NCBI GenBank assembly: GCA_024694125.1
Contig: JAILKE010000038.1
Location: 23,933 to 87,932 of the forward strand
From: Bacteroidales bacterium
Lineage (GTDB): Bacteria; Bacteroidota; Bacteroidia; Bacteroidales; UBA3663
DNA: 64,000 nucleotides
Direction: 5' to 3'
Shown here: positions 38,903-40,926 of the stretch, piece after piece
Layout of the letters: each line of letters begins with the position of its first letter
How positions within the stretch are numbered: the first letter of the stretch is position 1
Notes under the pieces: generated by a model
Told to the model about the DNA's origin: nothing
The model's database searches: none
Seen by the model: only the letters and a program-made list of their open reading frames with translations
Made by a program: the position numbers and the translations under genes

Positions 38903-39730
38903 ATGTCTTCCGTTCGCATCACAGACATCGACATCCGCACAATGTGGGGTGACACGACGATTTCGTGGCACAACCTGGACCCGCAGATCAATATCATTGT
39001 GGGTCAGAATGGTTTTGGCAAGACCACGATGCTCAATCTAATTAAGTCAGTCCTGGTCAAGGACGACAAGTTCTGCAAGATGCTCAAGGCCTCAGTCTGC
39101 ATCAAGACGACCGAGGGCGAGATGTCGTTCGATGGGCGGCGGATGCAGCACAAGCCTGCCTTTGGAGGATTTGCCAACGTCAATTGTTTCCATTATCTCA
39201 ATACCTTCGACGTACCTGCTTCGAAGAAATCCACCCTCTCGCAGTTAGGAATGTCGCTCGATGCAGTCCTGTACCAGCGCACACCATCGGTCTATAGTTT
39301 CTCGGACTACCGACTCAGCATGCTCAATGACCTGAAGACTGCATTGCAGAAACAGGAACGCATCGAGAAGTTCTTCGCCATCATCAACGAACTCTTTGCC
39401 TCAACCGGCAAGCACATTGAAATAGATGACAAGAACCGCATCATCTTCCGCAAGGGGGACATCACCATTGAGATGGGTAATCTCTCGGCAGGTGAAAAAC
39501 AAATTCTACTCCTACTCTTTACACTCTTCCTGATGGAAGACAAGCCCAATGTACTGCTCCTCGACGAACCAGAAATATCTCTGCACGTTGAGTGGCAGGA
39601 TCGACTCATTACCTTAATGCACGAACTCAATCACAACTGTCAGATCATTATGACCACCCATTCGCCCAATATCTTTGCCGACGGTTGGGAGGACAAATTG
39701 GTCTTCATCAATGACTTGATTCAACAATGA
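38903..39730 (+). CDS. Compact ABC/AAA-type ATPase, partner of DUF4435 protein
   Basis: Cytoplasmic ATPase of 275 residues of the RecF/OLD/AAA_21 type. Walker A IIVGQNGFGKTTML (about 31-44), ABC-like signature LSAGEKQ (194-200), Walker B VLLLDEPEISLH with D221/E222, and H-loop TTHSPNIFADGW (H253). Between Walker A and signature lies a short helical region instead of a long coiled coil. The stop overlaps the DUF4435 gene (ATGA), so the two are co-translated. ATPase plus DUF4435 is the gene pair of the PARIS anti-phage system (AriA/AriB), but this ATPase is much shorter than the AriA proteins I know of. Defence is inference. Confidence 0.88.
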   Translation: MSSVRITDIDIRTMWGDTTISWHNLDPQINIIVGQNGFGKTTMLNLIKSVLVKDDKFCKMLKASVCIKTTEGEMSFDGRRMQHKPAFGGFANVNCFHYLNTFDVPASKKSTLSQLGMSLDAVLYQRTPSVYSFSDYRLSMLNDLKTALQKQERIEKFFAIINELFASTGKHIEIDDKNRIIFRKGDITIEMGNLSAGEKQILLLLFTLFLMEDKPNVLLLDEPEISLHVEWQDRLITLMHELNHNCQIIMTTHSPNIFADGWEDKLVFINDLIQQ

Positions 39731-40659
39731 ACCTCGGACCAAGACCACAATACACGGACCAGGAAAAATACGACTTCTACAAACTTGCCGCCAAACGCTT
39801 CAAGGCCGAGACCAGACTCTACGGCTACACCGCAGCCATACACTTGGAGAACAAGAACGATGAGGTGTTCTGGGGCAAAGTGCTCAAGCACGTCTTTCCC
39901 GACAAAAAGTTCCGCTTCATATCTGCCTCCCGCAGTATAGGAGGCAACATCACCTGTGGCTGTACGCAATGCCTACAGTACAAGGATTTTCTCGATGACC
40001 GATTCTGGATTGCCATTGACAGCGACTACCGCTATCTCAACCAACAGCCGGACATTGATGCAAAACACCATATACTGCAGACCTACACCTACAGTTTCGA
40101 AAATCATTTTTGTTTCGGCGACAATGCCAATCAGGCAGAAATGGAATGCTGCGGTAGTCTCCGCATAGACTTTACCAATTTCGTACGCGAATACAGCCAC
40201 ATTGTATATCCCCTACTGGTGTGGCAGCTCTATCTGCAGGGAATCTCACCCGATGCCTTTCCGCAACGTGTCTTTCACCGTCTGCTCACATTGCCCATCG
40301 GCGCACGAGCAGCCGAGAACGACGGGGCATCCATCCTGCAATTACTCAAGGAACGCGCTCGCAAGTTAGAGAATCACTTCCGCAAGCAGTATCCCGAAGC
40401 CGATCCCACTTGGTTCGAGGCTCGCTGCCAGGACCTCGGTGTGCATCGGGACAACTGCTACCTCTATGTACGCGGCCACCAGTTATATGACCTGATTACC
40501 GATCTAGGCAAGCGCATACGACAGGAACACAAACAAAAAGAGCCCGAAATCAAGGGCGGTCGCAGCTTCGAGAGCTATCTGACCAGTCACCTCTGTTTCG
40601 GGCAGTACGACGAAATACGTCGTCTCGTTGATGATGTCAAGCTGCTAGGCAGCCACTGA
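39727..40659 (+). CDS. DUF4435 protein (TOPRIM-like, AriB-type)
   Basis: Cytoplasmic 310-residue protein. DUF4435 pattern: acidic motif HLENKNDEVFW (E41, D45), IAIDSDYRYL (D98, D100), and TYSFENHF (E125), the arrangement of a TOPRIM-like metal site. A cluster CGCTQC (77-82) between the first two motifs could bind zinc and is unusual. The C-terminal half is helical. In PARIS the DUF4435 subunit is a toxin-like nuclease held by the ATPase. It overlaps the ATPase by 4 bases and ends 3 bases from a convergent gene, with no room for a terminator. Confidence 0.82.
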   Translation: MNLGPRPQYTDQEKYDFYKLAAKRFKAETRLYGYTAAIHLENKNDEVFWGKVLKHVFPDKKFRFISASRSIGGNITCGCTQCLQYKDFLDDRFWIAIDSDYRYLNQQPDIDAKHHILQTYTYSFENHFCFGDNANQAEMECCGSLRIDFTNFVREYSHIVYPLLVWQLYLQGISPDAFPQRVFHRLLTLPIGARAAENDGASILQLLKERARKLENHFRKQYPEADPTWFEARCQDLGVHRDNCYLYVRGHQLYDLITDLGKRIRQEHKQKEPEIKGGRSFESYLTSHLCFGQYDEIRRLVDDVKLLGSH

Positions 40660-40662
40660 CAA

Positions 40663-40926
40663 TTAGCAAGCCTTCTTGCAAGAATCAGCAGCGCAGCAAG
40701 CCTTCTGGCATGAGTCTGCAACGCAAGAGTCAGCTGCACATGCGCAAGAATCACAAGCGCAAGAGTCGCAAGCGCAAGCCTTCTGGCAAGAATCAGCTAC
40801 AGCCTCAACTGGAGCAGCAGCCTCCTCAACAGCAGGAGCCTCAGCCTTCTGACCACCACAAGAAATCATGCATACACCAACAAACGATACCATCATAACA
40901 ATGGCCATTACACGAAGAGCCTTCAT
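40663..40926 (-). CDS. Cysteine-rich repeat lipoprotein
   Basis: An 87-residue lipoprotein: signal with lipobox VCMISC (Cys about 23), an Ala/Glu/Pro-rich linker (KAEAPAVEEAAAPVEAV), then a tail with 13 Cys in repeated CACDSCACDSC and DSCQKAC words. The DNA is correspondingly repetitive (GCAAGAGTC, GCAAGCC). The regular Cys spacing suggests metal binding or disulphide cross-linking outside the inner membrane; no known family is assigned. It has a minus-strand promoter box and stands alone. Confidence 0.78.
   Translation of the reverse strand: MKALRVMAIVMMVSFVGVCMISCGGQKAEAPAVEEAAAPVEAVADSCQKACACDSCACDSCACAADSCVADSCQKACCAADSCKKAC

Follow-up and report, generated by a model that had tools for sequence, protein, structure and literature searches.

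Does an ATPase gene that overlaps a DUF4435 gene in a Bacteroidales chromosome encode an anti-phage module? The question is raised by a two-gene unit at positions 38903-40659 of the window, the stretch of 64,000 nucleotides of a Bacteroidales genome that was analyzed. The original prediction read this unit as a PARIS-like defence candidate, and defence annotation tools label it PARIS. In Escherichia coli, the AriA ATPase of PARIS is a hexamer that holds AriB and frees it on a phage trigger; AriB is a tRNase, and the freed dimers cut tRNA by two-metal chemistry. A survey puts PARIS in 20% of human gut genomes, with Bacteroidales as the main carriers, and finds it nearly absent from soil and sea (PMC10924106). 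The evidence below inclines us to see the locus differently: not as a newly gained anti-phage module but as a chromosomal AriA/AriB-type pair of Bacteroidales, passed on vertically, whose cell-intrinsic role is probably to cleave RNA.

The gene pair and its motifs

Both genes lie on the forward strand, where they had been predicted. The ariA-like gene (38903..39730) encodes a 275-residue ABC/AAA_21 ATPase of short form, assigned by PADLOC, Pfam AAA_21 and PDB matches, and the ariB-like gene (39727..40659) encodes a 310-residue DUF4435, TOPRIM-type putative ribonuclease, assigned by PADLOC and Pfam. The two share 4 bases, ATGA (39727..39730), an overlap from which translational coupling is expected. 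The detection rule of Rousset for PARIS takes an AAA_15 or AAA_21 ATPase gene adjoining a DUF4435 gene, with scores above 32/27/27 bits; the adjacent and overlapping genes of the window score 81.4 bits for AAA_21 and 60.1 bits for DUF4435 (Pfam cut-off 27 for each). Comparison with the PADLOC profiles confirms the proposed AriA/AriB arrangement over the full length of both proteins, with PDLC04164 (AriA) matching the ATPase at residues 1-274 (E = 2.8e-83) and PDLC04165 (AriB) matching nearly the whole of its partner (E = 2.8e-79). These models of short AriA and AriB do not distinguish core copies from accessory ones, and divergent accessory copies (E to 1e-122) outscore the window pair.

The ATPase motifs named in the original prediction are all present and invariant in 31 AriA relatives. 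They comprise the Walker A motif GQNGFGKT (residues 34-41, 39002..39025; G34, N36, G37, G39, and K40 invariant), the ABC signature LSAGE (residues 194-198, 39482..39496; L194, S195, G197, and E198 invariant, with LS-GEK at 194-199 kept throughout), the Walker B motif VLLLDE (residues 217-222, 39551..39568; D221 and E222 invariant) and the H-loop residue His253 (39659..39661). The acidic residues predicted for AriB fare equally well: the catalytic-type Glu41 (39847..39849) is invariant in 38 AriB relatives, as are both aspartates of the TOPRIM-type motif D98-S-D100 (40018..40026) and Glu125, located in QTYTYSFEN (40099..40101). Together with N126 and with Gly250-His251 of an RGH motif (40474..40479), these positions do not vary in the 34-38 relatives compared. 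No PDB chain matches the AriB protein in sequence, and its structure model (pLDDT 44.3, from a 4-sequence alignment) is too poor for use. Just past ariB, on the opposite strand (40663-40926), an 87-residue ORF carries repeated cysteine-rich CADSC/CACDSC units; an ORF similar to this protein also flanks ariB in genomes G010 and G011.

The short form of AriA

E. coli AriA carries a long insertion, a putative coiled coil, and the window ATPase had been predicted to lack it. This proves correct. The best PDB sequence match of the window ATPase is with E. coli AriA chains, and a profile of 31 AriA relatives aligns to residues 3-137 and 300-440 of 8ux9, with no counterpart in the profile for residues 138-299. 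The window protein has 275 residues vs. 464 in E. coli. In common with PARIS of E. coli B185 and the solved complexes 8ux9 and 8v45-8v49, an ABC ATPase is combined with a DUF4435/TOPRIM protein in the same gene order, with motifs intact. The original prediction went further and proposed a distinct, minimal version of the system. That proposal does not hold, as the short AriA is standard in Bacteroidales and PADLOC has a dedicated model for it. Among the Bacteroidales relatives collected, nearly all have an AriA of 244-315 residues, and a new, unusually small subtype was therefore rejected; the full-length PADLOC matches mean that the short form has already been modelled. The single-chain AriA model, of moderate confidence (pLDDT 65.6), matches the ABC folds of PtuA, AriA, and Rad50, and in Foldseek its top matches are to PtuA (Septu, retron I-A / Ec83). 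PtuA shares the ABC ATPase fold with the AriA model but its partner is an HNH nuclease and not a DUF4435 protein.

The cysteine and lysine loops of AriB

The CGCTQC loop of AriB (C77-C82, 39955..39972) had been singled out as an unusual cluster. The cysteines C77, C79, and C82 do exist, but they are not conserved as a set: C77 and C79 vary even inside the genus of the window, and C82 is kept in most of the branch of the AriB family to which the window protein belongs. A conserved metal site was accordingly rejected, since two of the three cysteines vary within the genus and most relatives are without the set. At the same place, 35 residues past the catalytic glutamate, AriB proteins of two families in another branch (f60 and f113) have a lysine-rich KGKK loop, and the window's branch is without these lysines. 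In E. coli AriB, K60 and K64, which are 34 and 38 residues past E26, are required for defence. The likeness of the KGKK loop to K60/K64 is drawn from residue spacing and is suggestive only. The difference in the loop, in which the window AriB may also depart from E. coli PARIS, may correspond to a different RNA target.

Inheritance within the genus

Both proteins occur in 12 of 15 members of the window's genus, all of them incomplete metagenome-assembled genomes (MAGs); three relatives of the window genome are rumen or abomasum MAGs. The pair is absent from the remaining three, two of which also miss the gene that adjoins ariA in their closest relatives. This points to an assembly gap in those two, though without proving it. 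Protein distances of AriA and AriB track those of RecA across ten genomes (Mantel r 0.90 and 0.95, respectively, p 1e-4), and dN/dS within the genus is 0.03-0.085. The pair is thus vertically inherited and under strong purifying selection. Some genomes of the genus have another RecA-like gene (G000:C43:1833-2852, G011:C117, and G003:C42), which shares 71-80% identity with the RecA of the window.

Flanking genes differ among many species of the genus, with partial synteny between close ones. In the sub-branch of G003, G004, and G005, the transcription units of ariA and ariB diverge, separated by genes for a nucleotidyltransferase and a sigma factor; in a fourth genome (G012) the two genes are on separate contigs. 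The AriB proteins of these four genomes (loci L035, L036, L037, and L043) have 354-375 residues, about 45-65 more than that of the window; they carry an insertion near residue 140.

Extra AriAB-like copies are patchy (G011, G302, G411, G506, G606, G617, G628, and G636), which indicates that the wider AriAB family is also mobile. In G011 a second, divergent ariA-ariB pair (L049:9405-11309) lies beside the core pair, and its AriB is 29% identical to that of the window.

Distribution across Bacteroidales

At E 1e-30, AriB is matched in 31 of 393 sampled Bacteroidales genomes, clustered by family, and families come out as clades in both the AriA and the AriB tree. Family f107 has AriB in 24 of 60 genomes, and its presence is all-or-none per genus: only 2 of 138 within-genus genome pairs are discordant (null mean 67, minimum 42 in 5000 shuffles). 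Applied to AbiEii, an ordinary defence gene (AbiE), the test gives 62 of 138 discordant pairs in this family, near the null mean of 70. A DUF4435/AriB gene is present in 59 of 60 good genomes of f60 and in 71 of 72 of f113. Family f60 is probably Bacteroidaceae, because sequences of Bacteroides finegoldii and Phocaeicola massiliensis fall inside it. In these two species an AAA ATPase and a DUF4435 protein also form a two-gene unit with a short ATPase, beside a DMT transporter and in chromosomal-type surroundings; their pair differs in belonging to the other branch (AriA 31-35% and AriB 25-27% identical to the window proteins) and in having the KGKK loop. Since the proteins of f60 and f113 belong to a different branch, their AriB being 20-24% identical to the window AriB, these families inform on the behaviour of the wider family and not on the window pair itself.

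Genomic surroundings

The neighbours of the pair in the window are GH95, an apiosidase-like hydrolase, an S8 protease and a TonB receptor; the neighbours tested include no mobile genes, and no other defence system scored among them. An ABC transporter and the subtilase give generic PADLOC matches only; the ATPase of an ABC transporter at 31374-32051 matches both mad3 and AriA, which illustrates how defence annotation is misled by generic ATPase models. The local G+C content, about 49%, lies inside the range of the neighbourhood. Elsewhere, with product names read off translated sequences except in the B. finegoldii record, the pair is upstream of ruvB and a two-component system in four of the f107 loci examined, downstream of an ElyC-type gene in f59, and downstream of psd in f4; neighbours of ElyC/NUDIX type are among those seen. 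A DMT transporter adjoins it in f60 and in B. finegoldii; MeaB and an MscS channel are further neighbours in both L109 and B. finegoldii.

No AriB relatives were found in phage records or in scans of IMG/VR viral contigs. Plasmid matches to AriB are remote, and the two from Bacteroidales look chromosomal. One of these (NZ_OY725943.1) was rejected as a plasmid as it carries rsmA, ftsH, lpxB, surE, and MeaB; the other (OY726067.1, an unannotated record) was rejected by gene order alone, DMT-ariA-ariB as in f60. The patchy, mobile and defence-associated occurrence expected of PARIS is not seen for this pair. This weakens the proposal of a defence candidate: the proteins do belong to the AriA/AriB family, but the pair is conserved and vertically inherited among housekeeping genes. 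The original prediction had itself named a housekeeping pair conserved in all relatives at this locus as evidence against defence. The pair is indeed in most of the genus, with related forms spread through whole families, and has housekeeping neighbours, though its exact flanks vary between species.

AriB without AriA

In family f113, ariA adjoins ariB in some genera, and in others the two are 51-153 kb apart on the same contig. At E 1e-12, AriA is absent from 25 good genomes of this family, in a search whose controls score 1e-111 or better. Four AriB proteins from genomes without AriA were inspected; all catalytic residues are kept and the proteins nest within the tree of the family. Persistence of AriB with an intact catalytic site suggests that it has a function independent of AriA; the genomes concerned carry AriB of the other branch, which is 20-24% identical to the window AriB. 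An AriB without AriA is no proof of non-toxicity, because deletion of ariA is also harmless in E. coli.

Possible roles of the pair

For a vertically inherited chromosomal pair, we infer by analogy the ATPase-gated nuclease logic of E. coli PARIS. The short ABC ATPase AriA would bind ATP, form an oligomer and keep AriB, the TOPRIM nuclease, inactive. On a cellular signal, such as translation or RNA stress, the state of the ATPase would change and AriB would be freed to cut a tRNA or another structured RNA by two-metal chemistry, slowing translation. The pair would primarily serve the cell itself, in RNA surveillance or in the control of stress. Given the inheritance pattern, the signal most likely comes from the cell and not from a phage.

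A real immune system can nevertheless become fixed in a lineage, and the main rival is an immune role of this kind. The pair would then be a true PARIS-type abortive infection system turned core innate immunity, in which AriA senses a phage protein and frees AriB, and the resulting tRNA cleavage arrests infected cells. Full-length AriA/AriB profile matches, intact ATPase and TOPRIM residues, AAA_21 and DUF4435 scores above the 27-bit thresholds that define PARIS, and the precedent of the E. coli tRNase freed by AriA all agree with it. We consider it rather unlikely, given that the pair has neither a defence-island setting nor mobile carriage, is near-universal and single-copy per family, lacks the AriA insertion and the lysine-rich loop, and that f113 retained AriB after loss of AriA. 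In a further reading, AriB is an RNase M5-like enzyme for maturation or quality control of host RNA and AriA an optional accessory regulator. In its favour, f113 keeps AriB more widely than AriA, the four copies inspected retain their catalytic residues, and the E. coli AriB catalytic site resembles that of RNase M5 (PMC12409363). It is improbable, as AriA and AriB co-occur and diverge in parallel in the window's branch. The original prediction, of an ordinary minimal PARIS gained by horizontal transfer and sited in a defence locus, is a very poor candidate. Gene content and order match AriAB, but inheritance is vertical, presence is genus- or family-wide, the G+C content fits the neighbourhood, and the neighbours tested include neither mobile genes nor other defence systems; in E. 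coli, by contrast, PARIS is cargo of a P4 hotspot.

The surprise is that several Bacteroidales lineages have an AriA/AriB-type pair that behaves like an inherited core pair; a literature search that covered few subscription journals found no paper reporting such a case. A broader and still tentative proposal, to which we give somewhat less credence than to our reading of the window, is that several Bacteroidales families have in AriA/AriB an ancestral core pair devoted to cell-intrinsic RNA cleavage, with AriB free of AriA in part of one family and mobile PARIS a derived form or side branch, so that much of the "PARIS" of gut Bacteroidales would not be defence. If much gut PARIS is an inherited core pair, survey counts (PMC10924106) need correction, and dominant gut bacteria may have in AriB a core RNA-cleaving enzyme that has escaped recognition. 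Gene deletion in laboratory Bacteroides strains can tell core function from defence. A partial parallel exists in Sulfolobales, where the OLD-family ATPase-nuclease Cran1 is a conserved core gene of ATPase-TOPRIM type, apparently essential and apparently without a defence role; it differs in being a single archaeal polypeptide, a nickase with a role in the cell cycle (PMC12796447).
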